Below are positions 15,722 through 58,006 of a stretch of DNA of 64,000 nucleotides, piece by piece. Location: contig SMSO01000031.1 in assembly GCA_004764695.1 (NCBI GenBank), forward strand, positions 1,486,600 to 1,550,599, written 5' to 3'. The notes below the pieces were generated by a model, which saw only the letters and a program-made list of their open reading frames with translations, ran no database searches and was not told the DNA's origin. The number at the start of each line of letters is the position of its first letter. The first letter of the stretch is position 1. Made by a program: the position numbers and the translations under genes. Source of the DNA: Schizochytrium sp. TIO01. Lineage: Eukaryota > Sar > Bigyra > Thraustochytrida > Thraustochytriidae.

Positions 15722-18569
15722 CAAAATATTGAACAAACAGACGCGCGAAGAAACGAAGAAATAGCTCCCTAGCTTGCAAGAGCGAGCCAAGACTACACCA
15801 CGCACAACAGAGCTCCCCGGGCTCTTCGGAGTCGCGAGGATAGCGGCCCTCAGAGCTTGAACCAGCCCATTCTGAGCTCTACTTTGAAATCCTCGATCCT
15901 CGAGATCGACGCTTTCTTTGAAAAGTTGGACGAAGCTGAGCTTTTCCGGCTCGCGCGTCTGTCGGTTTTGCCCCAAGAGGAAGGTAGGCAGGTAGTACTG
16001 GTAGTGCTACTAGTAGTAGCCGGATTAAAAGATTGATTGATGTTTAGATTTGTTGGTATCATTTAGATGATGATGGAGAACTCAGCTATCTTGGAGAACT
16101 TAGAATTGGAGAGGATGACGATGACGATTGTGGATTGTAATGGTTCTTCGGGTTTGTGCAGATTTGAAGTAGATGGCCGTGAGGACGATGGTGGTTGGCT
16201 TGGGTTGGAGATCCTTGCGGTCTGTCTGGACGCCTGACTGTCTGGTCAAGCATGGTGAAGTCGGAGTTCTTCTCCAGGGCTCGGAGATCTTGGAGCACTT
16301 TCAGAAACTTGAAAAAAGCACGCACGATCGCATTTCATTTTAATCAGAACTGTATATATCATATTTTAATCAGAAAGAGGAAAAGCGGTTTCGTCAAAGT
16401 CAGAGATAGAGAGTGAGAGAGTGAGTGAATCTCAGCGAAATTGCAAACCAAACTGCCGGGAACTCCAAGGTTAGGCCGCTCATGATGCAATCATCCATCC
16501 AGCATGACATAACATCATCGTCCTGGAGCCTTGAAACTCGGACGACACCCCAAAGGACTCGTGAACTCCGAGACTCCCCCCTCGTCTGCATGATTGATGG
16601 CTTCCAGTTCTCCAAGCTGTCACCAAGAATGCCAATTAAATTAAAACCAAGGCATCGTACTCTCTCTCCTACTAACGCAGAAATCACAGCGATGCTGGAG
16701 TCGCACCTAGAGGGATCTCTAGGACTGCCAGCGTGACGAGGATCATTATGGGTACCTACCTACCTACCTCTATCATGCAAATATGACATGTTCATGTCTA
16801 TGGATCGCTGCATACAAACCACATCATACACATGGTAAGTACAGCCCGGTGCTTTACAATGATGGTTTTCCGGAGCCTCACGTGAGCACGGGACGCATCG
16901 TACTTCAGAGAGTATGTATGCATGTATTTCTATATTTATTGAATTAATTAATTGATTAAATTATGCAGACGAGGTACCTATTGGTTGATATAAATAAGGA
17001 ACTGGGCCACAATGAATTGCGCGAACAGTGTAATCCCAAAGTGCATGATAAGTTAGATACCCTCAAGTTCTCTTCACGTTCTCCTCGTAAGTCAATATTA
17101 TGAGCAAGTTGTAGGTAGCTTCACCTATCATGACACATGACACAGAAACCTATCTACCGATCACTAATACTACTACTACCTGCTTCATTCTTATAAAAAA
17201 TATTTTTTTACTTGAATTTTAAAATTGAATTAGAATAAAAATTGTTTTCTCATGTTTCCATATTGCGAAGTGAGCGGGACTAAAACAAAAAGAAAATAGA
17301 AAGAAAGAAATAGCTTTGTCTTCCTTGGTTTGTGAGATTGCCGCCATTTGCTAACTTGAAGATCATAATCGTTAACCCTAACACCTCTACGCGATCACGC
17401 TCTGCTTCGGGAGAGCGTCCCGCCGCTCGATCTTTCGGTCGTCCCGAGGACTCTGCTCTATATCGGGCAGTGCCCGAGTTTTGCAAAGGCGGTGTTCATG
17501 AATGATGTGCAATAGGATTTCAATTAATTAAAAATTAAACACCATCGTGATTAGGCTAGATATTATTGCAGTTTCGCGATGTCTACGAGTCTTCTAGGTT
17601 CCGTAATGAAAGGAGAACACAATCTCTTCGCTTCAAGTGCGCTCTCTCACTTACTCACTCACTTACTCACTCGAAATGGAAACGAGCGCACTCCAAACAA
17701 GGTGAACTTGGAGTGTCAAGATATTCATCGGTGGAGCTACAGCAACAAACGACCTCAGATGTGACACCTATTCAGTTTGGCCTCTAGACTTATAAATCTG
17801 TTAAATCTGTGCGCTGCGATACTTGAACATTCTGCCGCAAATAGACAGATATGCTACATGAAAACTAAGACGAACTTCATGGCTTCGACTTTTGCAGATG
17901 ATCTCAAAATTATCAAGAAAATGATGCATGATTTGATTTGATCAACCTCGGAGCGACCCGCTTTGTTCTTCGTACTTGGGCACGGACCGATGACCTGCTA
18001 TGTGCCTCTATCTAGGTATCCGAGTTTCTTACTTTGCTCTTTCGCTCTCTTTTTAATGATGATGATTGTTATTTTTATTTTCTATTTTACGGAAAACTTT
18101 CAACTTCAATTATCACGCGAAGCTCAGGGGAGACGAAGCACAAGAGAACACCTCCTCTAAGAAAAGTATAACCTAGTGCAGTACGAGAGGAGACCTCCCT
18201 ACGTTTTCGCGCTCTCACTTCGAAGCAGGTGGGTGGAAAACACACAAACTATACTCTCAGTGTTGTTCTGAGGCAGCACCACTGACACAAAATTCAACAA
18301 GCTTCCCTCTCGCTCCACTAACTATGGCGGTCCGTAGTGGCATGTGAGGAGAGGACAAGAGGATTTGGAGGAAACCTGTTCGTGGAAGCAAGAAGAGAGG
18401 GTCCCACTGCGGGGCTTTATGACTTAGAAGTGAGGCAAGGCAATTGAAGAGCGATGATAAAAGCTCGAAATCGCGAGAACTTGGCATCAGCAAATCCGCA
18501 ACTCAAGCATCCAAAGCAACTACAAAAGCAACAGCAGTAGCAACTCAAGTAAACTTACTTTTATCCAAA

Positions 18570-18899
18570 ATGGCTCAGGGTGATATCCAGAACAAGGCCC
18601 AGGAGGTCAAGAACGCCGCCAGCGAGAAGGCCACCGAGCTCGGCAACAAGGCCAGCGAGACCGCCGAGCAGGCCAAGCACACCGCTCAGGAGAAGAAGGA
18701 GCAGGCATCCAACAAGATGCAGGAGGCGTCCAACGACGCCAGCACCACCGGCCAGCAGAAGTCCAACGAGGCTGGCTCCACTCTCGAGTCTGCCAAGAAC
18801 ACCGTGGCTGAGAACCTCGAGTCTGCCAAGAACACCGTCTCCGAGAAGGCCACCGAGGCCGCTGACTTCGTCAAGGAGAAGACCGGCATGGACCAGTAA
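18570..18899 (+). CDS. LEA group 3-like protein, array copy 1
   Basis: A 109-residue hydrophilic protein made of Ala, Lys, Glu, Thr, Asn and Ser, with no Cys, Trp, Pro or Tyr. Imperfect 11-residue periods (for example NTVAENLESAK, NTVSEKATEAA) mark it as a LEA_4/group 3-type protein. Such proteins are disordered in dilute solution, fold into amphipathic helices on drying or on membranes, and protect proteins and bilayers. The start MAQGDIQ is chosen because an upstream in-frame extension (from 18444) exists only in copies 1, 2 and 6; in the others a TAA immediately upstream or a frame change closes it. The ATG context is CCAAAATGG. Codons are strongly biased to AAG, GAG, GCC and AAC, suggesting high expression. 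The protein is identical to copy 2. Unlike the other copies it lacks the promoter-like block about 670 bases upstream. A lipid-droplet or other amphipathic coat role is an alternative. Confidence 0.85.
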   Translation: MAQGDIQNKAQEVKNAASEKATELGNKASETAEQAKHTAQEKKEQASNKMQEASNDASTTGQQKSNEAGSTLESAKNTVAENLESAKNTVSEKATEAADFVKEKTGMDQ

Positions 18900-19025
18900 A
18901 ATGTTAACATTGCAGATATATTCTAGCTAGGGTCAAACCGCGCTTCTGCGCAACATGACTTTCCATTTCAATTTATAAGAAATTTTGGTGCCATTAACAT
19001 TGTTTATCTTTCCCAACTCTTGAAA
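18900..19025 (+). promoter_or_regulatory. Conserved 3' UTR block with a small hairpin (present after all eight LEA genes)
   Basis: About 120 bases after each stop are conserved in all eight units while the spacer beyond is not. It contains a 4-bp stem with a TTCT loop: GCGC-TTCT-GCGC at 18940-18951 (copy 1) and 20718-20729 (copy 2). Copy 4 has a TACT loop. Copies 3, 5, 6 and 7 have GCGT-TTCT-GCGC and copy 8 has GCGT-TTCT-GTGC, changes that still allow G-U pairs in RNA. It may be a 3'-end processing or stability element. Confidence 0.4.
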
Positions 19026-19595
19026 TATTGGCGTGCTCTTTTCATCGCTTATACCTTTGTGATCTCGTTCTTGATTTTTGTTTTTACCTTCTGTGTTTGG
19101 GGCAAAACTTGGCAAGTGCATCATCTTCCAAAGATATGTACTTATTTTCGCAAGCGCAATTATGCTGTGCAAATGAAAAACCAGTCACTAAAGATAGCAA
19201 CATATGCAAGATCTAGCCATGTACAAATACCCGTGCCAGACAACCCAATAATTCAATCCAAGTTTCTTCGAAAAGTCGGAGTCTATTGGGTAATCATCGG
19301 CACTTCTCGCTTAATATTGTGGTGCACGGCCAGATAGTGAAGCAAGCTGTCCTTTACAAGGTTTTAGTGCGGGTTTGAAAAATGGCAAAGCAAAACAAAT
19401 GTAGCCTGGGAATAAAAGCTAATCTGAACCAAAAACACGTCCCTAGCAGGGCGTGCTCCTCAGAGGTTGAGAGCACAATACTTTGCAATAATTAATTCAT
19501 CTCGGCATATTGCGTGACTCCATCAATATAAAAAGGCCATCACCAAACGCAGATATCCTACGGATTTTATCCAAAACTTAATAAATAAGGATCTT

Positions 19596-19690
19596 GTATG
19601 GTACACACCGTCTGTAGGTCACTCTTGACACTTGGGCTGAAAGAAAAAGAGGGAGAGAATGAGGGGTAGAGAAAAGTATAAAAACGCTTA
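19596..19690 (+). promoter_or_regulatory. Promoter-like block of LEA unit 2
   Basis: A GTATGGTACACACCGT box at 19596 is followed about 80 bases later by TATAAAAACGCTTAG at 19677. Both recur in the same order and spacing in every later unit. The distance to the ATG is 671 bases. Confidence 0.45.
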
Positions 19691-20347
19691 GCTCTTTTTT
19701 TCTTCTATGCTCTCACAGAATCAACTTCATCACGAACCGCCTTCTTCTCTGTACTTGAGCATAAAGTTATGACTTGCCACGTACTTCAATCTAACTATCT
19801 GAGCTTCTTACTTTGCTCTTTCTCTCTCGTTCTGAAGATGGTTGATATATAAATATATTGTATGGGAAGCTCTTTTTTTTAATTATCAAGCGAAGCTCAG
19901 ATCAGGCGAGACGAAGCGCACGAGAACACCTTCCTCTCAGAAAATTTCAACTCAGTGCAGACTGAGAGGAGACCTCCGGACGTTCTACGCTTCAATCTTA
20001 GACCAGGTAGGTGGAAAACCCGTCCTTTATCAACTCAGTGTTGGTCTGAGGCAGCACCACTGACACAAAATTCAACAAGCTTTCTCCTGGCTCCACTAAC
20101 TAAGGCGTTCTGTAGTGACATGTGAGGAGAGGACAAGAGACCTCAGAGGAAACCTACTTTCGAAAACAAGAGGAGAGGGCCTCACTGCGGAGCTTTATGA
20201 CTTAGAAGTGAGGCGCAGCGATTGAAGAGCGATGATAAAAGCTCGAAATCGCGAGAACTTGGCATCAGCAAATCCGCAACTAAAGCATCCAAAGCAACAA
20301 CAAAAGCAACAGCAGCAGCAACTCAAGCAAACTTACTTTTATCCAAA

Positions 20348-20677
20348 ATGGCTCAGGGTGATATCCAGAACAAGGCCCAGGAGGTCAAGAACGCCGCCAG
20401 CGAGAAGGCCACCGAGCTCGGCAACAAGGCCAGCGAGACCGCCGAGCAGGCCAAGCACACCGCTCAGGAGAAGAAGGAGCAGGCATCCAACAAGATGCAG
20501 GAGGCGTCCAACGACGCCAGCACCACCGGCCAGCAGAAGTCCAACGAGGCTGGCTCCACTCTCGAGTCTGCCAAGAACACCGTGGCTGAGAACCTCGAGT
20601 CTGCCAAGAACACCGTCTCTGAGAAGGCCACCGAGGCCGCTGACTTCGTCAAGGAGAAGACCGGCATGGACCAGTAA
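20348..20677 (+). CDS. LEA group 3-like protein, array copy 2
   Basis: 109 residues, identical in protein sequence to copy 1, including NLES in the 11-residue repeat region and AADF near the end. The frame is open upstream to 20222, but that part is treated as leader because it is closed in sister copies. A TATAAAAA-type block lies 671 bases upstream (19677), so the transcript either has a very long leader or a leader intron. Confidence 0.85.
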   Translation: MAQGDIQNKAQEVKNAASEKATELGNKASETAEQAKHTAQEKKEQASNKMQEASNDASTTGQQKSNEAGSTLESAKNTVAENLESAKNTVSEKATEAADFVKEKTGMDQ

Positions 20678-21386
20678 AATGTTTACAATGCAAATATATT
20701 TTAGATAGGGTCAAACCGCGCTTCTGCGCAACATGACTTTCCATTTCAATTTATAACAAATTTTGGTACCATTAACTTTGTTTATCTTTCCCAACTCTTG
20801 AAAACCTCTTCATCTCTCATACCTTTTGTGATCTCGTTCTTGGCTCATGTTTCTTGTAAGTTTGACTTTAGGCAAGTGGATCCTCTTCGAAGATATACAC
20901 CTATGATCGCAGGCGCAATGGCACTGTGCGTATGAAAGTCCAGTCCTTGCAGATATTGATAAGCGCAAAAGCTAGCGATGTACGTTTACTCGTTCCAATC
21001 AACTCAATAATTTTATGCAAGTTTATTCGAAAGTTCAGGGTTGTCTTCATCGGCGCTCATTATTTGATAGTGTGGTGCACGGCCAAATAGTGGAGTAAGC
21101 TATCCTTTGCAAGATTGCAAATACAATTCAGCTGCTACAGGTCCCGAAATGGCGAATTAGAATAAATGTGGCCTGAAAATTTAAATACTAGAAAACACGG
21201 TTTTTAAATTATAACAAACGTCTTGCGTTCTTAATTTTTCATACCATTTTTGCTGGAAGTACAGTTCAGGAGATTGAAAACAGTATATATTGATATTAAT
21301 AGATATTTGTCAGTCTTTTGTGTGACTCAATCAATCTATATAAGCCATGCGTAGGTTTTGTCCATATCTTACTAAAAGAGGAAATT

Positions 21387-21497
21387 ATGTGGTACGCACC
21401 GTCTGTAGGTCACTCTTGAGTATCAGTCACACCTATGGGCCGAAAGAGAAAGAAAATGTAGGGGTTCAGTTTCTATAGTAAAGTGTAGAAACGCTTG
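21387..21497 (+). promoter_or_regulatory. Promoter-like block of LEA unit 3
   Basis: Box GTGGTACGCACCGT near 21389 and a degenerate TATA/ACGCTT block (GTGTAGAAACGCTTG) near 21483-21497. Confidence 0.4.
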
Positions 21498-22135
21498 ATG
21501 ATATGGTTTCTCTAAGCTTTCTGAAAACAGACAGAACCAACCTCATAGCGAACTACGTGGTCGTCTGTACTCGAGCATGGCCCAGGCACGTCTAAGTGAA
21601 CATCTGAGCTTCTTACTTTCCGCAATCACTCTCTTCTCTGATGATCGTGATTACTATTATTACAATATTCTACGGAGACCTTTCAAGATCTAATCATCAT
21701 GCGAAGCTCAGATCAAACAAGACGAAGCACAGGAGAATACCTCCCTTCCGAGGAAGTTCAACCCAGTGCCGGCTGAGAGGAGACCTCTCGGCGTCTTTGC
21801 GCTTCCAGCTCAGAGCTGGTAGGTGGGAAACCTGTACAGTGTTGTTCTGAGGCAGCACCACTGACACAAAGTTTAATAGGCTCTCTCTTGCTGCACTGCA
21901 GACCAAGTCTTCCAGTGGCATGTGAGGAGAGAATAAGAGACCTCAGAGGAAACCTACTTTCGAAAATAAGAGAACGGGGCCTTCTGACTGTAAAATAAGG
22001 CGCAGCAATTGAAGAGCGATGATAAAAGCTCGAAATCGCGAGGAATTGGCATCAGCAAATCCGCAACTCAAAACATTCAAAGCAACTACAAAAGCAAAAG
22101 CAGCAGCAACTCAAGTAAACTAACTTTTATCCAAA

Positions 22136-22465
22136 ATGGCTCAGGGTGATATCCAGAACAAGGCCCAGGAGGTCAAGAACGCCGCCAGCGAGAAGGCCAC
22201 CGAGCTCGGCAACAAGGCCAGCGAGACCGCCGAGCAGGCCAAGCACACCGCTCAGGAGAAGAAGGAGCAGGCATCCAACAAGATGCAGGAGATGTCCAAC
22301 GACGCCAGCACCACCGGCCAGCAGAAGTCCAACGAGGCTGGCTCCACTCTCGAGTCTGCCAAGAACACCGTGGCTGAGAACTTCGAGGCTGCCAAGAACA
22401 CCGTCTCTGAGAAGGCCACCGAGGCCGCTGACTTCGTCAAGGAGAAGACCGGCATGGACCAGTAA
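22136..22465 (+). CDS. LEA group 3-like protein, array copy 3
   Basis: 109 residues. It differs from copies 1 and 2 by MQEMS for MQEAS and by NFEAAK for NLESAK. A TAA lies in frame just before the ATG (in GTAAACTAACTT), which fixes the start at MAQGDIQ. Confidence 0.85.
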   Translation: MAQGDIQNKAQEVKNAASEKATELGNKASETAEQAKHTAQEKKEQASNKMQEMSNDASTTGQQKSNEAGSTLESAKNTVAENFEAAKNTVSEKATEAADFVKEKTGMDQ

Positions 22466-23164
22466 AATGTTTACAATGCAAATATATTCTAGATAGGGTC
22501 AAACCGCGTTTCTGCGCAACATGACCTTCCATTTCAATTTATAACAAATTTTGGTACCATTAACATTGTTTATCTTTCCCAACTCTTGAATTCTTTGCGA
22601 GCTCATTTCATCGCTAATACCTTTATGATCTTGTTCTTGACTCCTGATGCTTGCTTGAATCTTGATGCTTGCCAGTTGGACTTGAGCAAGTGGGACCGCT
22701 TTAAAGATACGAATCTATACTCCTAGGCGCGATAACCCTGGCGTATGAAAATAGCAACACGTGCAAGATCTAGCGACGTGCGAATACCCGTGCCAAGCAA
22801 CTCAATAAGTCTATGCAAGTTTGTTCGAAGGTCGGGGTCTATTGAATATTCATTGGCGCTTCTCACTCGATATTGTGATGCATGAAGAGATGGTGAAGTA
22901 AGCTGCCTTTCGCAAGATTGCATACATAATCGAGCCGAGGGTCCCAAATGGCGGAGCAGAATACATGTAGCCTCTAGGGGAATAAAACCTGATTCTCACC
23001 ATACAGACACTCCTGAAAGTGCAGCTCAGGAGATAGAAAACATAATATATCGATATCAATATATATATTCTCAGACTATAGCCTTTTTCCATCAATCTAT
23101 ACAAGTCATCATCAAGCGTAGATGTTCTCTAGATTTTGTCCATTGATATTTATTGAGGATATTG

Positions 23165-23272
23165 CATGGTACACACTGTTGCTAGGTAACTCTTCAGTAC
23201 TAGTTACAATTGGGTACCAAGAGAGAAAGAGAAGGGGGTTAGTTTCTACAGTAAAGTATAAAAGCGCCTAGT
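23165..23272 (+). promoter_or_regulatory. Promoter-like block of LEA unit 4
   Basis: Box CATGGTACACACTGTT near 23165 and AGTATAAAAGCGCCTAG at 23255-23271. This is the best TATA match in the array. Confidence 0.45.
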
Positions 23273-23941
23273 AGTTCTTTTTCTAAGCTTTATGGAAACA
23301 AACAGAAACAAGCAGAAACAAGCAGGATCAACCTTCTCGCGAACCGCCTTCCCCTCTTGAGCATGGACCTATAACTTACCACGTGCTTCTATCTAACTAT
23401 CTGAGCTTCTCACTTTGCTTTGCTCTTTCGCGCTCTTTCTGATGATGGTTATTATAGGTATTTTAAAGATATTTTATGGAAGGGTTTCATTTTCAACTAT
23501 TAAGTGAAGCTCAGATCAAACAAGACGAAGCACAGGAGAACACCTCCCTTCCGAGGAAGTTCAACCCAGTGCAGTCTGAGAGAAGACCTCTCGACATTAT
23601 CGCACTTCTAGTTCAGAGGAGATAGACGAAAAATTTGTACAGTGTTGTTCTGAGACAGCACCACTGACACAAAGTTTAATAGGCTCTCTCTTGCTGCACT
23701 GCAAACCAAGTATTCCAGTGGCATGTGAGAAGAGGACAAGAGACCTCAGAGGAAACCTACTTTCGAAAACAAGAGGAGAGCGTGGCCTTCTAACTTTAAA
23801 ATAAGGTCCCGCAATTGAAGAGCGATGATAAAAGCTCGAAATCGCGAGGAATTGGCATCAGCAAATCCGCAACTCTAAGCATCCAAAGCAACACCAAAAG
23901 CAACAGCAGCAGCAACTCAAGTAAACTAACTTTTATCCAAA

Positions 23942-24304
23942 ATGGCTCAGGGTGATATCCAGAACAAGGCCCAGGAGGTCAAGAACGCCGCCAGCGAGAA
24001 GGCTACCGAGCTCGGCAACAAGGCCAGCGAGACCGCCGAGCAGGCCAAGCACGCAGCTCAGGAGAAGAAGGAGGAGGCATCCAATAAGATGCAGGAGATG
24101 TCCAACGACGCCAGCACCACCGGCGAGCAGAAGTCCAACGAGGCTGGCTCCGCTCTCGAGTCTGCCAAGAACACCGTGGCTGAGAACCTCGAGGCTGCCA
24201 AGAACACCGTGGCTGAGAACTTGGAGGCTGCCAAGAACACCATTTCTGAGAAGGCCACCGAGGCCGCTAACTTCGTCAAGGAGAAGACCGGCATGGACCA
24301 GTAA
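23942..24304 (+). CDS. LEA group 3-like protein, array copy 4, with one extra 11-mer
   Basis: 120 residues, the most divergent copy. It has HAAQEKKEEAS, GEQ for GQQ and SALES for STLES. The 11-residue unit NTVAENLEAAK is present twice in a row, a 33-base in-frame duplication. This adds exactly one LEA helical period, so the copy shows how the 11-mer protein can grow. A TATAAAAG sequence lies 685 bases upstream at 23257. Confidence 0.85.
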   Translation: MAQGDIQNKAQEVKNAASEKATELGNKASETAEQAKHAAQEKKEEASNKMQEMSNDASTTGEQKSNEAGSALESAKNTVAENLEAAKNTVAENLEAAKNTISEKATEAANFVKEKTGMDQ

Positions 24305-24976
24305 AACGTTTACATTGCAAATATATTCTAGATAGGGTCAGACCGCGCTACTGCGCAACATGACCTCCCGTTTCAATTCATAATAATTTTTGGTATCATA
24401 AACATCATTCGTCTTTCCCAACTCTTGAGCTCTCTCCATCGCTTATACCTTTGTGATCTTGTTCTTAACTCCTGTTTCTTGCCAGTTTGACTTTGGGCAA
24501 GTGGATTCTTTTCAAAGATCTGTAGCTATGACCGCAGGCGCAATGACACTGTGCGTATGAAAGTCCAGTCGCTGCAGATACTAACCAATGCAAGATCTAG
24601 TGACGTACGATTACCCGTTCCAAGGAATTCAATAATTATATATAAGTTTGTTCGAGAGACCAGGGTCGCCTTTATCGGTGCTCATCATTTAATATTGTGG
24701 TGCACGACCAAATACTGGAGTAAGCTATACTTTTCAAGATTGCAAACATAGTCCAGCTGTGGGTCCCCAAAAGGCAAAGCAAAATAAATGTAGCCTGGGA
24801 ATAAAAGCTAATTTACACCGCAAAGAGACTCCTAGGAGGGCATACTGAGGATTCGGAACAAGACAAAAATTTAATACTAACAGATATATTCTCAGTTTGT
24901 AGCGTGAATTCATCAATCTAGATAAGCTATGGTCAAGCACAGATGTTTTACGGGTTTTGTGCAAATATTAGACATG

Positions 24977-25080
24977 GCATAGTACACACCGTTCGTAGGT
25001 AACTTTTGAATATTGGTTACAATTATGGCCCAAAAGAGAGAGAGTTCAGTTTCTTCTATCTGAGTAGAGTCCTAGTGAAC
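24977..25080 (+). promoter_or_regulatory. Promoter-like block of LEA unit 5
   Basis: Box CATAGTACACACCGTT near 24978. The TATA position is degraded (GAGTAGAGTCCTAGTG near 25062), which may mean weaker expression of this copy. Confidence 0.35.
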
Positions 25081-25737
25081 TTGATTTTCTATGCTTTCCA
25101 GAAACAAAAGGAATCAAGCCCATAACGAACCGCGCTGCCATTTTAAACCTTGAGCATGCACCTATAACTTACCAGGCACCTCTAACTAGCTATCTGAGCT
25201 TCTTACTGTCTCTTTCTCTCTTTTTTTAAAATGATGAGTGTTATTATTACTACATTCCATAGAAAGCTTCCAATTTTAATGATCAAGCGAAGCTCAGGGG
25301 AGACGAAGCGCAGGAGAACACCTCCTTTCCAAGGAAGTTCTACCCAGTGCCGTCTGAGAGGAGACGTCCGGACGTTCTGCGCTTCCCGCTCAGATCATCG
25401 ATGATAAACAATCACATTGTCAACTCAGTGTTGTTCTGAGGCAGCACCATTGACACAAAATTCAACAAGTTTTACTCTTGCTCTACTAACTAAGGCGTTC
25501 CATAGTGGCATGTGAGGAGAGAATAAGAGACCTCAGAGGAAACCTACTTTCGAAAATAAGAGGAGAAGGTCCCACTGCGGGGCCTTATGACTCAGAAGTG
25601 AGGCGAAGCAATTGAAGAGATATGAGAAAAGCTCGAAATCGCGAGGAATTGGCATCAGCAAATCCGCAACTCAAGCATCCAAAGCAACTACAAAAGCAAC
25701 TACAAAAGCAACTCAAGTAAACTAACTTTTATCCAAA

Positions 25738-26067
25738 ATGGCTCAGGGTGATATCCAGAACAAGGCCCAGGAGGTCAAGAACGCCGCCAGCGAGAAGGCC
25801 ACCGAGCTCGGCAACAAGGCCAGCGAGACCGCCGAGCAGGCCAAGCACACCGCTCAGGAGAAGAAGGAGCAGGCATCCAACAAGATGCAGGAGATGTCCA
25901 ACGACGCCAGCACCACCGGCCAGCAGAAGTCCAACGAGGCTGGCTCTACCCTCGAGTCTGCCAAGAACACCGTGGCTGAGAACTTCGAGGCTGCCAAGAA
26001 CACCGTCTCCGAGAAGGCCACCGAGGCCGCTAACTTCGTCAAGGAGAAGACCGGTATGGACCAGTAA
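25738..26067 (+). CDS. LEA group 3-like protein, array copy 5
   Basis: 109 residues with MQEMS, NFEAAK and AANF variants. The spacers on either side of this copy (about 24730-25000 and 26500-26780) are almost identical to one another, more so than any other spacer pair, so units 5 and 6 share a recent duplication or conversion. Confidence 0.85.
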   Translation: MAQGDIQNKAQEVKNAASEKATELGNKASETAEQAKHTAQEKKEQASNKMQEMSNDASTTGQQKSNEAGSTLESAKNTVAENFEAAKNTVSEKATEAANFVKEKTGMDQ

Positions 26068-26753
26068 AATGTTTACAATGCAAATATAATCTAGCTAGGG
26101 TCAAGTCAAACCGCGTTTCTGCGCAACATGACTTTCCATTTCAATTTATAACAAATTTTGGTAACATTAACATTGTTTATCTTTCCCAACTCTTAAACCT
26201 TTTCGTGCTCTTTCCATCGCTTGCACCTTTACGATTTCGTTCTTGGCTCATCATCCTTGCCAGTTTAACTTTAAGAAAGTGGATCCTCTTCGAAGATATA
26301 TACCTATGCTCTCAGGCGCAACAACACTGTGCGTATGAAAGTCTGCAGATAGCAACGAGTGCAAGGTCCAGCGACGTACGATTACCCGTTCCAAGCAACT
26401 CAATAATTATATGCAAGTTCTCGCGAAAGCCCAAGGTCCATTGAGTACTCATCGGCGCTTCTCACTCGATATTGTGGTGCATGAAGAGATAGTAAAGTAA
26501 ACTATTCTTTCCAAGATTGCAAACATAGTCCAGCTGTGGGTCTCAAAAAGGCAAAGCAAAATAAACGTAGCCTGGGAATAAAAGCTGATTTACACCGCAA
26601 AGAGACTCCTAGGAGGGCATACTGAGGATTCGGAACAAGACAACAATTTAATACTAACAGATATATTCTCAGTTTGTAGCGTGAATTCATCAATCTAGAT
26701 AAGCTATGGTCAAGCACAGATGTTTTACGGGTTTTGTGCAAAACTTAGACATG

Positions 26754-26860
26754 GCATAGTACACACCGTTCGTAGGTAACTTTTGAATATTGGTTACAAT
26801 TATGGCCCAAAAGAGAGGGCGTTCAGTCTCGATCGTAAGAAAGTACAAAACGCCTAGTGA
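26754..26860 (+). promoter_or_regulatory. Promoter-like block of LEA unit 6
   Basis: Box CATAGTACACACCGTT near 26755 and AGTACAAAACGCCTAGTG near 26842-26859. It is 677 bases from the ATG. Confidence 0.4.
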
Positions 26861-27521
26861 ACTTGATTTTCTATGCTTTCCAGAAACAAAAGGAATCAAG
26901 CTCATGGCGAACCGCGTTGCCACTTTTAACCTTGAGCATTCACCTATAACTTACCAGACACCTATATCTAGCTATCTGAGCTTCTTACTCTGCTTTTCTC
27001 TCTCTTTTTTGATGATGATGATGAGTGTTATTATTACTACATTCCATAGAAAGCTTCCATTTTTCAAGCGAAGCTCAGGGGAGACGAAGCGCAGGAGAAC
27101 ACTTCACTTCCGGGAAAGTTCAACCCAGTGCAGTCTGAGAGTAGACCTCTCGGCGTTCGCGCACCTCCACTTCAGAGGAGCTAAATGGAAAACCCGTCCA
27201 ATATTAACTCAGTGTTGTTCTGAGGCAGCACCATTGACACAAAATTCAACAAGTTTTACTCTTGCTCTACTAACTAAGGCGTTCCATAGTGGCATGTGAG
27301 AGAGAATAAGAGACCTCAGAGGAAACCTACTTTCGAAAATAAGAGGAGAAGGTCCCACTGCGGGGCCTTATGACTCAGAAGTGAGGCGAAGCAATTGAAG
27401 AGATATGAGAAAAGCTCGAAATTGCGAGGAATTGGCATCAGCAAATCCGCAACTCAAAGCATCCAAAGCAACAACAAAAGCAACAGCAGCAGCAACTCAA
27501 GCAAACTTACTTTTATCCAAA

Positions 27522-27851
27522 ATGGCTCAGGGTGATATCCAGAACAAGGCCCAGGAGGTCAAGAACGCCGCCAGCGAGAAGGCTACCGAGCTCGGCAACA
27601 AGGCCAGCGAGACCGCCGAGCAGGCCAAGCACACCGCTCAGGAGAAGAAGGAGCAGGCATCCAACAAGATGCAGGAGGCATCCAACGACGCCAGCACCAC
27701 CGGCCAGCAGAAGTCCAACGAGGCTGGCTCCACTCTCGAGTCTGCCAAGAACACCGTGGCTGAGAACTTCGAGGCTGCCAAGAACACCGTCTCCGAGAAG
27801 GCCACCGAGGCCGCTAACTTCGTCAAGGAGAAGACTGGCATGGACCAGTAA
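27522..27851 (+). CDS. LEA group 3-like protein, array copy 6
   Basis: 109 residues with MQEAS, NFEAAK and AANF variants. A longer in-frame start at 27405 exists but is not conserved in other copies. The leader (27200-27420) is nearly the same as that of copy 5 while the coding variants differ, so conversion tracts are patchy. Confidence 0.85.
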   Translation: MAQGDIQNKAQEVKNAASEKATELGNKASETAEQAKHTAQEKKEQASNKMQEASNDASTTGQQKSNEAGSTLESAKNTVAENFEAAKNTVSEKATEAANFVKEKTGMDQ

Positions 27852-28530
27852 AATGTTTACAATGCAAATATATTCTAGCTAGGGTCAAGTCAAACCGCGT
27901 TTCTGCGCAACATGACTTTCCATTTCAATTTATAACAAATTTTGGTACCATTAACATTGTTTATCTTTCCCAACTCTTAAACCTTTTCGTGCTCTTTCCA
28001 TCGCTTGCACCTTTACGATTTCGTTCTTGGCTCATCATACTTGCCAGTTTAACTTTAAGAAAGTGGATCCTCTTCAAAGATGCGTGCTCCCAGGCACAAT
28101 GACGCTGTCGCTGCAGATAGCAACATGTGCAAGATCTATCGATGTACGATTACCCGTGCCAAGCAACTCAATAACTCTATGCAAGTTTGTTCGAAGGTCG
28201 GGGTCTATTGAATATTCATTAGCGCTTCTCATTCGATATTGTGATGCATGTGGAGATAGTGAAGTAAGATATCTTTTGCAAAATTGCAAACCTAATCGAG
28301 CCGAGGGTTCCAAAATGGCGACGCAAAATAAACGTAGCCTAGGAATAAAAGCTGATTTACACCGCAAAGAAACTCAAACGCAGGGCATGCTTAGAGGCTG
28401 GAACAAGACAACACATCGATATTATTAGATATATTCACAGTCTATAGCGTGTTTTCATCATCGTACATAAGCCATTACCAAACGTAGATGTTCTGCGGGT
28501 TTTGTGCAAAACTCAATAAATGAAGACATT

Positions 28531-28642
28531 GTATGGTACACACTGTCGCTAGTAACTCTCGAGTACCAGTCAGAATTATGTACCTAAAGAGAAAGAAAAT
28601 GAGGGCGGTTAGTCTCTATAGTAAAATAAAGAAACGCCTAGT
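28531..28642 (+). promoter_or_regulatory. Promoter-like block of LEA unit 7
   Basis: Box GTATGGTACACACTGT near 28531 and AAATAAAGAAACGCCTAGT near 28624-28642. Confidence 0.4.
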
Positions 28643-29275
28643 AGTTCCTTTTCTAAGCTTTATGGAAACAGACGAAATCAAGCTCATCGTGGACCGCCTT
28701 CTTCTCTTCACTTGAGCTGGACCGATGACTCAGGTAACTCTATCTAACTATCTGAGCTTCTTACTTTGCTCTTTCTCTCTCTTTATTATAGATATATTGT
28801 ATGGAAAGCTCTGATTTATAATTACCAAGCGAAGCTCAGATCAGGCGAGACGAAGCGCAGGAGAACGCTTCCCTTTCGGGAAAGTTCAACCCAGTGCAGT
28901 CTGAGAGACGACCCCCGGACGTTCTGGTGCTTTAATCTTAGTGCAGTAGTGTTGAGCCTTAAATTGTCAAATTAGTGTTGTAAGGGGGGAGCACCACTGA
29001 CACAAAGTTCAAGAAGCTTCCCTCTTGCTCCACTGCGTGCCGATCGTCGAAGTGGTATGTGAGGAGAGGGAAAGAGACGTCTACTTTCGGAAACAAAAGG
29101 AAAGGGTCCCACTGCGGGGCCTTACGACTTAGAAGTGAGGCGAAGCAATTGAAGAACGATGATAAAAGGTCGAAATCGCGAGAACTTGGCATCAGCAAAT
29201 CCGCAACTCAAAGCATCCAAAGCAACTACAAAAGCAACAGCAGCAGCAACTCAAGCAAACTAACTTTTATCCAAA

Positions 29276-29605
29276 ATGGCTCAGGGTGATATCCAGAACA
29301 AGGCCCAGGAGGTCAAGAACGTCGCCAGCGAGAAGGCTACCGAGCTCGGCAACAAGGCCAGCGAGACCGCCGAGCAGGCCAAGCACACCGCTCAGGAGAA
29401 GAAGGAGCAGGCATCCAACAAGATGCAGGAGATGTCCAACGACGCCAGCACCACCGGCCAGCAGAAGTCCAATGAGGCTGGCTCCACCCTCGAGTCTGCC
29501 AAGAACACCGTGGCTGAGAACTTCGAGGCTGCCAAGAACACCGTCTCTGAGAAGGCCACCGAGGCCGCTGACTTCGTCAAGGAGAAGACTGGCATGGACC
29601 AGTAA
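29276..29605 (+). CDS. LEA group 3-like protein, array copy 7
   Basis: 109 residues. It has a unique KNVASEK (Ala to Val) near residue 17, plus MQEMS, NFEAAK and AADF. An in-frame TAA just before the ATG fixes the start. Confidence 0.85.
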   Translation: MAQGDIQNKAQEVKNVASEKATELGNKASETAEQAKHTAQEKKEQASNKMQEMSNDASTTGQQKSNEAGSTLESAKNTVAENFEAAKNTVSEKATEAADFVKEKTGMDQ

Positions 29606-30246
29606 AATGTTTACAATACAAATATATTCTAGCTAGGGTCAAACCCGCGTTTCTGCGCAACATGACTTTCCATTTCAATTTATTACAAATTTTGGTACCA
29701 TTAACATTGTTTATCTTTCCCAACTCTTAAACCTCTCCATGATCTCTTCATCGCTTATACCTTTGTGATCTTATTTTTTATTTTCATTTCTTGCCAGATT
29801 GACCTTGGACCAGTGCATCCCCTTCAAAGATACGTCTATTTGCCTCCAGGCACAATGACGACGTCGCTGCAGATAACAACATGTGCAAGATCTAGCGACG
29901 TACGATGAATCGTGCCAAATAACTCAATAAGTTTATGCAACTTTGTTCGAAAGCTCGGGGTCTATTGGGTATTCATCGGCGCTCCTCACTCGCGATTGTG
30001 ATGCATGAAGAGATAGTGCTGTCTTTTGCAAGATTGCATACATAATCGAGCTGAGGGTTCCAACATGGCGGAGCAGAATGAGGGGGAATAAAAGCTGTTC
30101 TGCACCACAAAGACACTTCTGGCAGGGCATACTAAGAGGTTGGAGCAAGACAATACATCAGAAATATTCTCAGTCTATAGCTTGCTTCTACTATTGTACA
30201 TAAGCCATCATCAAGCGTAGATGTTCTGCAAACCTAAAATGAGAAT

Positions 30247-30352
30247 TGTATGGTACACACCGTTTGAAGGTACCAGTCACAATTATGGACCAAAAGAGAA
30301 AGAGAATAAGGGCAGTTAGTCTCTATAGTAAGAATTACAGGAACGCCTAGTA
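30247..30352 (+). promoter_or_regulatory. Promoter-like block of LEA unit 8
   Basis: Box GTATGGTACACACCGT near 30248 and a degenerate ATTACAGGAACGCCTAGT near 30334-30351, about 647 bases from the ATG. Confidence 0.4.
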
Positions 30353-30981
30353 GTTCTTTTTCTATGCTTTTTACTCAACCTCATCGCGAACTGCTTTGTC
30401 CTCTATACTTGAGCATGGCCCTATGACCTACCAGGCTCCTCTATCTAAACATCTGAGCTTCTTACTTTGCTCTTTCACTCTCTTCTTTGATGATCATGAT
30501 TGTTATTATTACTTTATTTTATGGAAATCATCACGCGAAGCTCAGATCAGGCGAGACGAAGCGCAGGAGAACGCCCCCTTCCGGGAAAGTTCAACCCAGT
30601 GTGGGCAAAGAGGAGAACTGCTTGGCCCCACCTCAGATCACGTAAGTGACAAACAGTCACATTGTCTGCTCAGTGTGGTTGGGAGGTACCACCACTGACA
30701 CAAAGTGCCACCAGATTTCCCCTTGCGTCACTGACAAAATTGTGTGGTAGTGGCATGTGAAGAGAGGACGAGAGAATTCAAAGGAAGGATTTTTTGTTAG
30801 TAAGGGAAGAGGGTTCCACTACGGGGCCTTATGACTTAGAAGTGAGGCGCAGCAATTGAAGAGATATGAGAAAAGCTCGAAATCGCGAGAACTTGGCATC
30901 AGCAAATCCGCAACTCAAGCATCCAAAGCAACTACAAAAGCAAAAGCAGCAGCAACTCAAGTAAACTAACTTTTATCCAAA

Positions 30982-31311
30982 ATGGCTCAGGGCGATATCC
31001 AGAACAAGGCCCAGGAGGTCAAGAACGCCGCCAGCGAGAAGGCCACCGAGCTCGGCAACAAGGCCAGCGAGACCGCCGAGCAGGCCAAGCACACCGCTCA
31101 GGAGAAGAAGGAGCAGGCATCCAACAAGATGCAGGAGGCGTCCAACGACGCCAGCACCACCGGCCAGCAGAAGTCCAACGAGGCTGGCTCCACTCTCGAG
31201 TCTGCCAAGAACACCGTGGCTGAGAACTTCGAGGCTGCCAAGAACACCGTCTCTGAGAAGGCCACCGAGGCCGCTAACTTCGTCAAGGAGAAGACCGGCA
31301 TGGACCAGTAA
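30982..31311 (+). CDS. LEA group 3-like protein, array copy 8
   Basis: 109 residues with MQEAS, NFEAAK and AANF variants. It has GGC instead of GGT at codon 4, which removes the GTG that opens the shifted-frame ORF in other copies and argues that ORF is meaningless. This is the last gene of the array; the following promoter-like block at 31991-32100 has no gene after it. Confidence 0.85.
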   Translation: MAQGDIQNKAQEVKNAASEKATELGNKASETAEQAKHTAQEKKEQASNKMQEASNDASTTGQQKSNEAGSTLESAKNTVAENFEAAKNTVSEKATEAANFVKEKTGMDQ

Positions 31312-31990
31312 GATGTTTACATTGCAAATATATTCTAGATAGGGTCAAACCGCGTTTCTGTGCAACATGACTTTCCATTTCAATTCATAATAATTTTTGG
31401 TAATATTAACATTGTTTATCTTTCCCAACTCTTGAAACGTTTGCGTGCTCGTTTCGTCGCTTATACATTAGTGATCTTAAGTCTTGATTGTTGTTTCTTG
31501 ATTGTTTCTCTTTGGGGCGGAGATTGGCGAGTGAACCCTCTTTTAAGGTATTTACCTATGCTCGCAGGCGCAATTGCGCTGAAGCCAGTGGCTGCAGATA
31601 GCAACGTGTGCAAGATCTAGCAACGAACAATTACCCATGCCAAGCAACTCAATAATTATGTGCAATTTTACTTGAAAGCTTGAGATCAATTGGATATTCA
31701 TCGGCACTTCTCACCCGATCTTGTGGTGCAAGAAGAGGTAGTGAACCAAGCTGTCCTTTGTAAGATTGCAAACATAATCCAGCTGCGGGTCCCGAGATGG
31801 CGAAGCAGAATGGACGTCGCCTAGGAATAAAAGCTGATTTGCACCGCAAACAAAGCCCCTATCAGGGCATGCTAAGAGGTAAAAACAAGACAACACATTG
31901 ATATATATACCAGTCCATAGTTGGCTTCATCAATGAACATATGCTATCCTCAAGCGAAGATGTTCTGCGGGTTTTACTCAATGGGGACTT

Positions 31991-32110
31991 TGTATGGTAC
32001 ACACCGTTTGTAGGTCACTCTTGAGTCCCAGTCAGAACTATTTGCCAAAGAGAAAGAGGGGGGCTAGTTTCTATAGTAAAGTATAGAAATGCCTAGCGAT
32101 TTAGTTTTTC
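31991..32110 (+). promoter_or_regulatory. Orphan ninth LEA promoter-like block
   Basis: The same two boxes occur here (GTATGGTACACACCGTTT near 31992 and AGTATAGAAATGCCTAG near 32080), but homology to the array fades by about 32150 and no LEA gene follows. The next gene, a RING protein, starts about 850 bases on. Confidence 0.5.
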
Positions 32111-32150
32111 TATACATTCTACTAAAACCAGACAGATAGAATCGAAATTG

Positions 32151-32956
32151 ACTATGGACCAGCCCTCTCATCCATGCTACCTCTCAACCATTACATCACT
32201 GCAGCGTTTATAAATATAATCGGAACGATCCCTTGAGTGAAGTTTTTCAGGTCAGAGAGTTCTCTTGATAGGCCGTACGTGGCAGCTTGATGAGGTTGTA
32301 AAAGCATGCTTGATAACGTTGAATAGGCCCCACTGGAATTCAAAATCCCATTTTGGGTTGTTCTCGTTCGTTTTTTCTCTTTAACCAGACAACTACCATA
32401 GTTTTTACTATGCATCCCTACTGCGGTGAGTTTAATAAAATATTGATATTATATAAAGTAAAACCATAACTTTAAAATCAGCACCCTTTCATCATCCAGC
32501 GATCGATAGTATTCATTCCAATGCAGTGACATATTTCTATGCAAGAACCTGCTGACACGAAAGATATGCATCCACGATCGCTCACAATTCAGTCACACTT
32601 CAGAAGGCCTGAGACCCCTGAGTTTCCCCCAAGAATCCCAGATTTAGCCTCGAAGTAGAAATTTCTCGCAAAAGGAGAGAGCATCTCTTTGTCTGATAAG
32701 AGGAACAATAGAAACAAGTAGAAACAGTATCTACCAAACTCTAGAGAACAATAAGAAAGAAAGGAAGAGTTCCTCGGTAGGGCCTATTAATGCACTCTTA
32801 GTGTTTATAACAGGAACAAAGGCCATAAACAAAAGGTTTCAAATTTGAAAAACCAAGTTTTGAACAATTTGAACCAAACAAAAAAGGGTATTGCCAACTC
32901 CGTCGTGGCGCAAACCTCGATCAACGTCGCGGAGGCGCGGCGCTGACCGGAACGCA
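32151..32956. other. Intergenic between LEA array and RING gene
   Basis: No gene or repeat recognised. It probably carries the promoter of the RING gene, and an A-rich stretch lies just before its ORF. Confidence 0.5.
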
Positions 32957-35900
32957 ATGCGGTCGGAGTGGGGCTCTCGAGGCGAGCGAAGCGACGCTTC
33001 GCGCTTCGGAACCACGGCGGTTGCGCCGTCCTCCAAAGCAAGGTCACCGAGCCCAGCCAGACGCGTTCGGCCCCTAAAGCAACTTGCACTGCGAAAAAGG
33101 GGCCAAAGAAGACCCGAAGGAGACGATGACTTCAGATCTGCACTTTGCAATAGGCTGTCGTCGGCTTCCTCCTCCTCTAGTTCTCTCACATCCCTGCACA
33201 TGCACTCCTCCATGACGAGTTCTTTGAGTTCTTCATCGTTTTCTACGTCGGCCTCAGTATCGTCATCATCAAGACCTGTTTCTGCATTCTCCTCATTGTC
33301 CACATTAACATCATCGTCCTCATCTCCAGAACTGGCGGTACATCTTCCGTCACAATCCCTATTAAGCTCTGCATTCACTTCATTATCCTCATCTTCTGCT
33401 ACTTCCTCCTCTTCTCCGTATTTGTCGGCTCCAATGCCCTCCAATTCACTTCTGGCGGATGACCTCCATAGCGAACCATACCAAGCACGAAACTTTGCCC
33501 ATGATGGAGATAAGGGACGCCAAGTCAGATATGAGCATTTGCATGGGCACTATAACATCCATAGTCACCACCGGGAATTATACCCCGAGTTAGCGCGCTG
33601 TATGCTTAAGATTGACCTCAAGCTTAAAAATAGTGTTTCTGCTCAGATTAAAAAGCCTCCTCAATTCCGCAACGAAAAGTTAAACTCTTTGGATGTACAT
33701 TTAGACTTCGCGGCGAGTGTCCTGGCTCCCAAGTCAAGTGCGAAAGTCACAATCGTTAGACTTGAGGACCAAACCAAAGAAGACACATATATCGACCTTT
33801 GTGAGGAAGAGAGTCCAGTAAGGAATACTGAAGATCAGGACATGAGCGCTACCATGACCAAAAAGTCGGAGTACCAAGCACTGAGGAAACTTCACCAAGA
33901 GCTTGGTGATGACCCCATGGACGTGGACGAGGATGAAAATCCGCATACAAATGACGACCTTGCGAAAGCTGATTTGCCAAGTGGCGCAGATGATTCAGTG
34001 TTTCTAGATGCCTCTGCGCCACCGCTCGAATCTTCTGCCCAGAGTGAACAAGACGATATGGGCACTGTAGTCACTCCAAATGAATTGGAGGTGGCAGGTG
34101 ATGATCGCACATGTAATGATGAAAGGAAGAATCAGCGCGATAACGTCGCAAGCAACGACACTTCAGCAGCAGCAATGCTCGAGGTTAGTGGTGAAGGGCA
34201 TAGAAGACCCCCGTCAGATGCTCATCAGAACACGGAAGGTAGTGATGATTGTATATTGAAAAGTAAAAGTGAGGAAGAGGAAACCGAAGAAGAAATTGGT
34301 AGCAAAGACACAATGAAGGAAGCAATCCAGATGCATGCTGTTGAGTCCATCGCAGAGGACGAGAAGTCTACAAGGGAAGAAGCTTCTAATATTATTGTTA
34401 TTGATGACAGTGATATCGAGACTGACGAACAAAAGGAGAAGAGATCCCAAAAACAACACTCACAGCAAATTCTGAATACTGTAGTGACCGAAACAGAAAC
34501 GACAGGCCTCAACATCAGTTCTGAAGCTGTGTGTGGTAAAGGTGGAGAGGGCAGCATCAAGGCTGTGCAGTCCAACAATGCGGATCCTGAACATCCAGAA
34601 AAGAGCATGCAGTCTTCGCAAGCCCAAAATCTAACAGCATCCTCTTCCTCCTCTTTGCTCTTTCCTGATCTCAAAACAAAATCTGCTCTCACACCAGTTA
34701 AATACAAAAAGAAAAATCGGCCATCCTCTTCTGGAATATCAACTCCCATTTCAACAAATCAGAAAGATAAAGGCAGTCACCGTGCACCCCTTTCTTCGAA
34801 CAAACGCAAATCTCGGCTACGAGACCACGACGATAGATCAAGCACAGATGAGAACCACGAAAGAAACAATAGTAACCAAGAAAGCGTCTCAGTTGATGAC
34901 CACTTGCATCAACATAAACGAAGAACGCCAGCAAAGGTGGACAAGACCTTGTCTGCCAAGCAACGCAGAAAAGTCTCCTCTTCATCATCGTCCTCTACCT
35001 TGCCGTTCGCACCGTCTACACCAGATCGCTTAGCCGCTGCAAAGTCTTCATTAACGTCATTGCATTCGCTTTCATCATCGATTAGTGGTCAGACTGATCC
35101 TCCTAAGTCAATGCCAACTTCTGTACCATTTACTCTTGATGTCCTCAACGAACGTTCAGACTCAACAAAAGTAACTCATGCCGAAAGCCCTCCCTTGTCC
35201 ACGAAGGTGAATGTTGTTTTGACCAAGCTCAAATCAATAACTAGTGGCGAACATGAGTCCAAAAACCATGATTCTATCGATGAGGGAGCCCTCGAAAACC
35301 ATATGAAACGACCTGCAAATGGTCAATATTCACACAAAAGTGAGGACTCAACGAATGAGGAACGGGATTCTAGCACCTCAAACATTGAAAATAAAGCAGG
35401 TGCACGCATTAGCAACTCCTCCAATACCAAAGCCTTGGAGCGTAATAGCGAGCTTTGCATGGAATCTGAAAGTCGGGAACGAGTTGGCGTCAATCAGGTT
35501 CTCCCCCAAGAAAATGTTACCGACAGGAAAGAAAGCAATCATTCGCAAAACCCTCTTGACAAGGAGCTGAACGTAGGCGATTCGAAGGGAGGTCGTGTGT
35601 CGGGGAACTCCTCTGTAGCCTCGACATCACCAACGCATACTAGGGATAGCCCTCAAGACGTTCGCGATGACGCAACCGACGCCGCCCCTTTCAGCACTCC
35701 AATTGCAAGAGGAGATTGTGATATAGAAAATGATGGCGTGAAACAAGAAAACCCTTCAGAAACAAGAGAACTGCCTGCAGCCAACGAAGGAGTTACCAAA
35801 AATGCAGAATCTTCATGCCACCAGAACTCGCAGCACTGTGAAAGATCCTCGGTGGCTGACTCGTGTCTGCGTAGCACTGAAGAAACAGAAATATCGCTTA

Positions 35901-57051: not shown

Positions 57052-58006
57052 CCTAGGCAAAGAACTTGACGATAGAGTGCCCTCGCGAGCGCCAAACAGC
57101 GCCCTAACCGAGAGCCTGGCAAAACTTGCGTTGCCAAACTGCACAGCTAATCGGGATGGCAAAGTCCCAACGGGGAGTGTAATCGGGTCATTAATAAATT
57201 AGACCTATTTGATATAACACACAATTTATAAGTCTTTTAGTCAACGGCTCCTGAGGCGTTCAAGCTTTTTTTAATGAACCATTGAGTATCTACCTACCTA
57301 CTGGGGAGGGAGGGACCAGAGAGTAGCCACTTCGAGATTGAATACAAAAAGTAGGCCTATATAGTTTTAAACACGTACGGGGTAGGAGCCACATAGCGTG
57401 CCAGCATTATTCGTTCTGTGGAAGCAGCTCTAGAACTTAAGGTTGGTTTGTTCTTTCTGGGTGCAGAGGGTCCATCGTTACATTTTTGTTACCGATGTCT
57501 ACATCAAGAGAGCGCTGCCACGTCGAGTCGAAATCAAATACTCTTGTTTTCCTTTGTAACCTTGAATATGATCTTCCGGATTTCCTATAACTTTAGATAG
57601 TGTCCGCACTGTAATTTTTGGAAATTATTTTTCCAGTTCTGCTTTAGTGCACTTCACATTATCATTTAGGGACTTGAAGTTGTTATTAACAACGTGCTTT
57701 GCTAACCTGCAAACAAGCACAAGGGCAAGAGCTTAGCCACTCGGGTGTTGCTTGAAGAGCTGAAAAGAGTTCGCGTTCAATATTTGTACCGAAAAGAGCG
57801 AGAGACGAGCGCCGTTGCGAGCCAAGAAGGAGAGTGCCGCGGGCAGGGTTCATGCCGTTCGTGAGGTGGCCAACGAAAGCATTCGTGCAATACTGCGCAC
57901 TCGTACGAGTCTAAGTTGCGCCTCAAAACTCTGTGTTAGAAAAATTTGCAATTTTTAGATAAGGTGGACTCTCCGGCCATCGCGAAGGATACCTAGGTTG
58001 AGGCTG
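57052..58006. other. Divergent promoter region
   Basis: Space between the MFS gene (minus) and channel gene (plus), which are transcribed apart, so it probably holds both promoters. Possible non-ATG or spliced N-terminal codons of the MFS gene lie at 57052-57200. No repeat besides short CTAC steps near 57292. Confidence 0.55.

Follow-up and report, generated by a model that had tools for sequence, protein, structure and literature searches.

Amplification of late embryogenesis abundant (LEA) genes has been described before, and one case is the ARId1 region of the sleeping chironomid Polypedilum vanderplanki, which carries 22 LEA and 14 LIL genes whose paralogues are taken as subfunctionalised (PMC8982440). 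Proteins made of 11-residue repeats (11-mers) that are read as a 3-11 helix are known also from the 11-mer region of perilipin, from alpha-synuclein and from the exchangeable apolipoproteins (PMC5889406). Here we describe an array of eight head-to-tail genes for a small LEA group 3-like 11-mer protein in a 64,000-nucleotide stretch of Schizochytrium sp. TIO01 (contig SMSO01000031.1, positions 1,486,600 to 1,550,599), hereafter the window, which averages about 45% G+C. Of three primer sequences published for Aurantiochytrium limacinum, two match this genome exactly and once each (the polyubiquitin-promoter primer of strain CCAP 4062/1, less its restriction tail, on contig C30, PMC8534400; primer P5 of MYA-1381, PMC10141969); the third (P9 of MYA-1381) has no match, which an intron could explain, the source having cloned from cDNA/genomic DNA. 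We take this as a sign that the host is A. limacinum or a strain very near to it. This locus resembles ARId1 in having many tandem LEA-type genes on one strand that can be read as the amplification of a protective protein; by contrast with ARId1, it consists of eight regular units with near-identical products (PMC8982440). An earlier annotation made from the DNA letters alone (the sequence-only reading) had considered such an array unusual for a desiccation-type protein. The 22 LEA genes of ARId1 speak against this, since tandem LEA clusters are known (PMC8982440), and what stands is the regular unit and the near-identity of the products. Amplified LEA-type genes are therefore not new; distinctive in this case are the regular unit, the near-identical products, the confinement of likeness to blocks, and the lineage. 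Among the open-access PubMed Central papers listed in our searches, none describes the array.

All eight genes lie on the forward strand in units of 1,706-1,806 bp, with start-to-start spacings of 1778, 1788, 1806, 1796, 1784, 1754 and 1706 bp. In a direct-repeat search, a 300-bp reference copy gave eight matches, the remaining seven being 95-97% identical to it, and eight regularly spaced matches are far beyond chance. The features of the array are as follows; the first coordinate of each gene is its start codon, and all copies were placed by open reading frame (ORF) list, frame check and alignment.

17941..32136, + strand: whole array (direct-repeat families; blastn homology limits of both flanks)
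18570..18899, + strand: copy 1, 109 aa
20348..20677, + strand: copy 2, 109 aa, same protein as copy 1
22136..22465, + strand: copy 3, 109 aa
23942..24304, + strand: copy 4, 120 aa, with a 33-bp tandem repeat (3.0 copies at 24155-24252)
25738..26067, + strand: copy 5, 109 aa
27522..27851, + strand: copy 6, 109 aa, same protein as copy 8
29276..29605, + strand: copy 7, 109 aa
30982..31311, + strand: copy 8, 109 aa, protein identical to copy 6

Comparison of the two flanks (16000-18569 and 31312-33000) with the internal units by blastn showed that homology begins at 17941 and stops at about 32136, so that the array comprises eight whole units; no ninth, decayed unit was found in either flank. Reading frames were intact in all eight copies, with no pseudogene among them (0/8). 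They encode six distinct proteins, of 109 aa in every copy except copy 4, which reaches 120 aa through one added 11-residue repeat (33 bp). The repeat search and the eight intact frames thus confirm the eight tandem units of the sequence-only reading, whose limits (17941-32150) were right to about 15 bases and whose variants MQEMS/MQEAS and NFEAA/NLESA are present in the copies. An in-frame upstream ATG, at 27405, was listed for copy 6 only. An N-terminal extension (MKSDDKSSKS...) considered for copies 1 and 2 was rejected, its frame not being kept in the other copies, and coding spacers were ruled out by eye on the ORF list, where no spacer ORF of at least 80 aa recurs in all units. Neither a tRNA nor, at gathering score, any Rfam family was found in the window.

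Alignment of the eight units revealed that likeness is confined to the genes and their immediate flanks. In 60-column bins, identity was 92-99% inside a block of about 590 bp and 58-84% outside it. The block, whose edges were set by eye on the alignment, takes in about 132 bp 5' of the ATG, the coding sequence (CDS) and about 126 bp 3' of the stop (alignment columns 757-1384), and presumably approximates the mRNA.

18438..19025, + strand: homogenised block of copy 1 (unit alignment)
20216-20802, + strand: homogenised block of copy 2
22003-22591, + strand: homogenised block of copy 3
23809-24428, + strand: homogenised block of copy 4
25606-26197, + strand: homogenised block of copy 5
27389-27981, + strand: homogenised block of copy 6
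29143-29731, + strand: homogenised block of copy 7
30850-31437, + strand: homogenised block of copy 8

The mean pairwise difference was 0.024 in the CDS, 0.063 in the 5' flank and 0.080 in the 3' flank, and 0.235-0.319 in five spacer stretches. The earlier term near-identical accordingly applies to the gene block (CDS pairwise differences of 0.3-4.0%) and not to the units, whose whole spacers have identities of 0.74-0.88 (74-88%). Diverged spacers beside alike blocks argue that the array is old, being neither an assembly duplicate nor a recent amplification, and that its genes are kept alike by exchange, selection or both. An assembly artefact, which the sequence-only reading had named as its own refutation, is suggested by the repetitive nature of the locus and by nothing else. 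We consider it highly improbable, since every spacer differs: each of the seven internal spacers departs from every other by 12-26%, copy 4 carries its private 33-bp insert, and the contig in which the array is embedded (C30) measures 9.8 Mb. Further identical units may have been collapsed in the assembly.

In the spacers that flank the gene on both sides, exchange between copies can be shown. In the most alike pair, spacers 4-5 and 5-6, identity switches between 0.73 and 1.00 by 100-column bins, and an order-based test of the pairwise homoplasy index (PHI) type was significant upstream of the gene (p 0.0065) and downstream of it (0/2000 permutations). Within the gene block there are 26 informative sites, of which 66% of pairs are incompatible with one tree, with at least 15 breakpoints. 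Measured against what concerted evolution would leave, the pattern in this one strain is a difference of 0.02-0.08 in the block versus 0.24-0.32 in the spacers, with the order test significant in the spacers and not in the block. We prefer conversion between copies together with selection as the account of this pattern. A serious rival is constraint on codons and untranslated regions (UTRs), by which old paralogues would stay alike mainly through selection on the mRNA with little exchange inside the genes. Several results tell for this rival and against our preference: the order-based test was non-significant for the block as a whole (p 0.19), the CDS (p 0.26) and the 3' flank (p 1.0), the 5' flank by itself giving a borderline value (p 0.049), so that the incompatible block sites could be recurrent mutation; moreover, strong codon bias by itself lowers synonymous divergence, and the low synonymous divergence seen here is partly due to that bias and not to conversion. 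On the other side, both CDS flanks match synonymous sites in their degree of likeness (0.06-0.08 versus 0.24-0.32 in the spacers), recurrent mutation would need to explain the conflict among site pairs in the block, and exchange is evident in the adjoining spacers. We regard constraint without appreciable exchange as a real contender, though the less probable of the two. The question of how the copies stay alike is separate from that of what their product does, and its probability does not belong in the same sum.

Codon usage points to high expression of all eight copies. As a yardstick we took the codons that a single actin gene and a single polyubiquitin gene of this genome favour, and the preferred-codon fraction was 0.75-0.84 in the eight copies (for copy 4, in the first 109 codons) versus 0.23-0.46 in eight other genes of the window. 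The G+C fraction at third codon positions was 0.83-0.90 in the array copies, 0.82 in actin, 0.70 in polyubiquitin and 0.40-0.64 in the eight window genes. A codon bias like that of actin and polyubiquitin is as expected of highly expressed genes, and the eight copies are probably among them. Amino-acid change is held down by purifying selection: synonymous differences (pS 0.058) exceed nonsynonymous ones (pN 0.015; pN/pS about 0.26), and 11 synonymous changes segregate over about 67 sites as against 11 nonsynonymous changes over about 260 sites (Fisher p 0.0013). Codon bias in 8/8 copies and purifying selection lend good, if indirect, support to the earlier suggestion of gene-dosage amplification. 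The +1 frame across the CDS is also free of stops in all eight copies and would encode an Arg/Pro-rich protein; it most probably arises as a side effect of codon bias. We also observed that three actin matches in the genome have identical Pfam scores (487.8 bits; C36:63614, C31:7107315 and C30:5328134), possibly another homogenised, dispersed family.

The protein consists of nine 11-residue repeats (ten in copy 4) in one register from residue 1, followed by a 10-residue tail, with nonpolar residues at repeat positions 2 and 6. In copies 4 and 5, hydrophobicity recurs with a period of 99 degrees per residue (3.64 residues per turn, near that of a 3-11 helix), a signal matched in strength by 0/2000 shuffles, and correlations at lags 11 and 22 were matched by 0-3/2000 shuffles. 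AlphaFold2 modelled copy 1 as a single helix over residues 3-105, with a predicted local distance difference test score (pLDDT) of 86 and a predicted template modelling score (pTM) of 0.40; the other four models had mean pLDDT values of 73.5-76.0. The predicted form of the protein is a single long helix of weak amphipathicity. Copy 5 has a net charge of -4, a grand average of hydropathy (GRAVY) of -1.20, a hydrophobic moment of about 0.23, a mean hydrophobicity of -0.07 and 29% hydrophobic residues; copies 5 and 4 together span moments of about 0.23-0.24, 29-33% hydrophobic residues and net charges of -4 to -7. The GRAVY of copy 4 is -1.08, and Cys, Trp, Tyr, Pro and Arg are absent from both copies. 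The start of the protein, MAQGDIQNKAQ, lacks a hydrophobic N-terminal stretch for export.

These features place the protein close to LEA group 3. It is small and hydrophilic, is made of Ala/Lys/Glu-rich 11-mers, is predicted to form an amphipathic helix and has no Cys, Trp, Tyr, Pro or Arg; regular 11-mers with an apolar stripe and high hydrophilicity without Cys or Trp, the marks of LEA group 3, were both found in copies 4 and 5. By contrast, membership of the Pfam family LEA_4 (PF02987) fails in every copy, at 18.4-24.4 bits against a cut-off of 51.1, although LEA_4 is the best or second-best Pfam match in 8/8 copies, aligning over residues of about 8-44 to 8-46. Charged residues make up 29-31% of the array protein as compared with 40-43% of two LEA-like stretches of the same genome. 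Apolipoprotein (PF01442), the other family that had been proposed for a hidden Markov model search, scored 19.1-25.7 bits in 8/8 copies, below its cut-off of 90, and LEA_4, Apolipoprotein and YtxH all gave weak matches below cut-off in all eight. No Pfam match at E <=0.05 was obtained with any of nine shuffles of copy 1 (0/9). The perilipin, synuclein and HSP9/HSP12 families of Pfam gave no match at E <=1 (copies 1, 4 and 5) or E <=0.05 (the other five), in searches whose HMMER filters drop most very weak matches, and NCBIfam matches were all far below cut-offs. Among solved structures, the sole match at E <0.1 was SHERP of Leishmania (PDB 2x43), at E 0.007 with the profile, 0.013 with copy 4 and 0.016 with copy 1; shuffled sequences had no match at E <=5 (0/2). 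SHERP is likewise a small hydrophilic protein, and reportedly a peripheral membrane protein, and the weak match extends over about 50 residues; at E 0.007-0.016 in low-complexity sequence, homology is not claimed. Two proteins comparable by description are TLDP1, a lipid-droplet protein of the thraustochytrid A. limacinum, and yeast HSP12, a hydrophilic stress protein of 109 residues whose folding takes place on membranes; the Pfam family of HSP12 had no match in copies 1, 4 and 5 at the threshold given above. As judged from its sequence, the protein is LEA group 3-like, short of Pfam LEA_4 membership. The LEA group 3-like architecture seen by the sequence-only reading is borne out by the 11-residue period and the single AlphaFold2 helix; its description as amphipathic holds in a weak form.

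In our proposal the eight genes form a dosage array: they are a tandem family of long standing, all in working order, and specify a single small 11-mer protein, soluble and probably cytosolic, which most likely serves, through mass action, as a shield of the LEA type. We give this reading somewhat better than an even chance. The likeness of the copies would be upheld by gene conversion together with unequal crossing-over, and by selection acting on the transcript, and the eight genes would supply a bulk soluble protein that works by quantity and not by catalysis. The protein would probably be disordered when dilute and may form one long, weakly amphipathic 3-11 helix on crowding, drying, salt or surface contact, in which state it could shield proteins, cell contents and membranes. 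The host protist lives in mangrove and coastal waters, where salinity changes, and a protective role is plausible.

Several points weigh against this proposal. Codon bias is an indirect sign of expression, its yardstick consists of two genes, and the restricted composition of the protein could inflate it. The protein falls short of LEA_4 in all copies, as noted above. The AlphaFold2 alignment contained the eight array copies only, and with eight near-identical sequences as input the predicted helix says little about disorder or partners. No heat-shock or stress-response element (STRE) is conserved across the eight upstream regions: strict heat-shock-type sites occur upstream of copy 7 only (two), and STRE-type pentamers, present upstream of 8/8 copies, share an aligned position in copies 1, 5 and 6 only, so that the upstream regions provide no sequence evidence for stress induction.

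The main functional rival is that the protein peripherally coats lipid droplets or inner membranes, in the manner of the perilipin 11-mers, synucleins and exchangeable apolipoproteins, the array supplying coat for an oil-accumulating cell. The host is indeed oleaginous, the Apolipoprotein match covers almost the full length of the protein (E 1.1e-5 to 1.1e-3 in 8/8 copies), and the weak SHERP match is absent from 2/2 shuffles. Length is compatible by analogy: in PMC5889406, perilipin 4 (Plin4) constructs of 66 residues stay cytosolic, those of 132 residues reach some droplets, and an 85-residue synuclein construct reaches some droplets, so that a 109-residue chain of 11-mers giving a 3-11 helix exceeds the latter and is borderline by the Plin4 comparison. 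However, the array protein is less hydrophobic than these proteins, is net negative, has no other domain and passes no family cut-off (PMC5889406), the Apolipoprotein score lying far under its threshold and perilipin, synuclein and HSP9/HSP12 matches being absent at E <=1 in copies 1, 4 and 5. The same study gives the Plin4 helix a moment of 0.257, 35% hydrophobic residues and a net positive charge, and its authors call it the weakest known lipid-binding helix (PMC5889406); copy 5 lies at or below these values, the Plin4 moment coming from Heliquest and ours from a script. Low hydrophobicity and negative charge argue for weak binding and weaken a lipid-coating role, which is possible; we regard a droplet coat as the unlikely alternative, albeit the strongest one concerning function.

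Alternatively, the protein might belong to the ectoplasmic net or bothrosome of labyrinthulomycetes and be produced in quantity at zoospore settlement. Among 18 settlement-upregulated, lineage-restricted candidates in A. limacinum, PMC12221091 includes A141237, labelled 'Late embryogenesis abundant domain-containing protein/Apolipoprotein-like?', and the array protein shares both of these resemblances. Yet A141237 is at most a candidate counterpart of an array copy, a separate gene of the genome studied here (on contig C34) fits that paper's Pfam label better with 59.6 bits for LEA_4, and the MAQGDIQNKAQ start is without an export stretch. This placement seems to us still less probable than a droplet coat. 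A more speculative combination, which we rate at most on a par with the ectoplasmic net and doubt accordingly, would limit correction between copies to the span of the mRNA, through conversion that is coupled to transcription or templated by cDNA, and leave the promoters to drift; the product would be a bulk protein peculiar to thraustochytrids, a coat of droplets or a filler of the ectoplasmic net, that evolved from LEA-type 11-mers.

Two short footprints recur upstream of every copy.

18131..18139, + strand: footprint AGACGAAGC, at -439 in copy 1; 8/8 units, -416 to -440
18283..18291, + strand: footprint TGACACAAA, at -287 in copy 1; 8/8 units, -274 to -287

The second is the core of a 16-base element found almost solely in the array. 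Across the genome (64.06 Mb, 37 contigs), and allowing up to one mismatch, this element occurs at 8 sites in the array, 5 of them exact and 3 with one mismatch, and at 1 site outside it, with one mismatch, the reversed control giving 3. The element looks private to the array, and this search gave no sign of a shared regulon acting through it.

A protein search of the same genome, which scores the best candidates only and hence gives lower bounds, recovered at E <=0.001 the eight array copies, of which copy 4 came out as two pieces on account of its added repeat; among the candidates scored there was no further match at that threshold. At E <=10 there were at least five additional weak matches (E 0.24-2.9), all in different, longer open frames, one of which is above the LEA_4 cut-off of 51.1.

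contig C34, around 150337-150771: gene over the LEA_4 cut-off (Pfam 59.6 bits)

To this C34 gene, and not to the array, belongs a PDB match to an adhesin (4tsh, E 0.00016), and it is a possible counterpart of the published ectoplasmic-net candidate A141237. Two further LEA-like loci were noted. A gene at C31:8699800-8703000 has canonical KAQDAKETAESKAQDAK-type 11-mers and an N-terminus (MLRQAIRSAAFLQTRTSLTAPSVPVRAFGSAAG) that, by eye, resembles a mitochondrial targeting sequence, which suggests a mitochondrial LEA; its reading frame breaks part-way, through an intron, a true frameshift or an assembly error. On contig C13, around 6531004-6531252, a 407-aa frame has helical LEA-like stretches, a hydrophobic N-terminal stretch and weak, below-cut-off matches to apolipoprotein and apolipophorin III, and its product is possibly secreted or membrane-anchored. 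Searches for relatives beyond this genome gave 43 pattern matches in viral contigs and 159 in prokaryote genomes, none of which was confirmed in either collection.

Elsewhere in the window, two adjacent, similar ARM/HEAT-repeat genes with 135-bp (45-aa) tandem repeats lie at 3160-5070 and 6620-9006 (- strand), the second being divided between two frames that overlap near 7180-7369. An ORF of 1,335 aa (32891-36898, + strand), which follows directly on the array, has a low-complexity N-terminal half and a C-terminal C3HC4 RING finger. At 57998-63388 (+ strand), an ORF of 1,796 aa contains four Ion_trans stretches in one uninterrupted frame and encodes a four-domain voltage-gated-type cation channel.

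Regular arrays of single, near-identical small-protein genes are a sign of a need for very large amounts of product, and here, in an oil-producing protist of biotechnological use, the array indicates a protein that is probably abundant and would serve in salt and drying tolerance or in oil packing. Eight differing upstream regions driving nearly one product constitute a natural promoter series, and alike gene blocks between free-running spacers offer a clean case for how concerted evolution is bounded.

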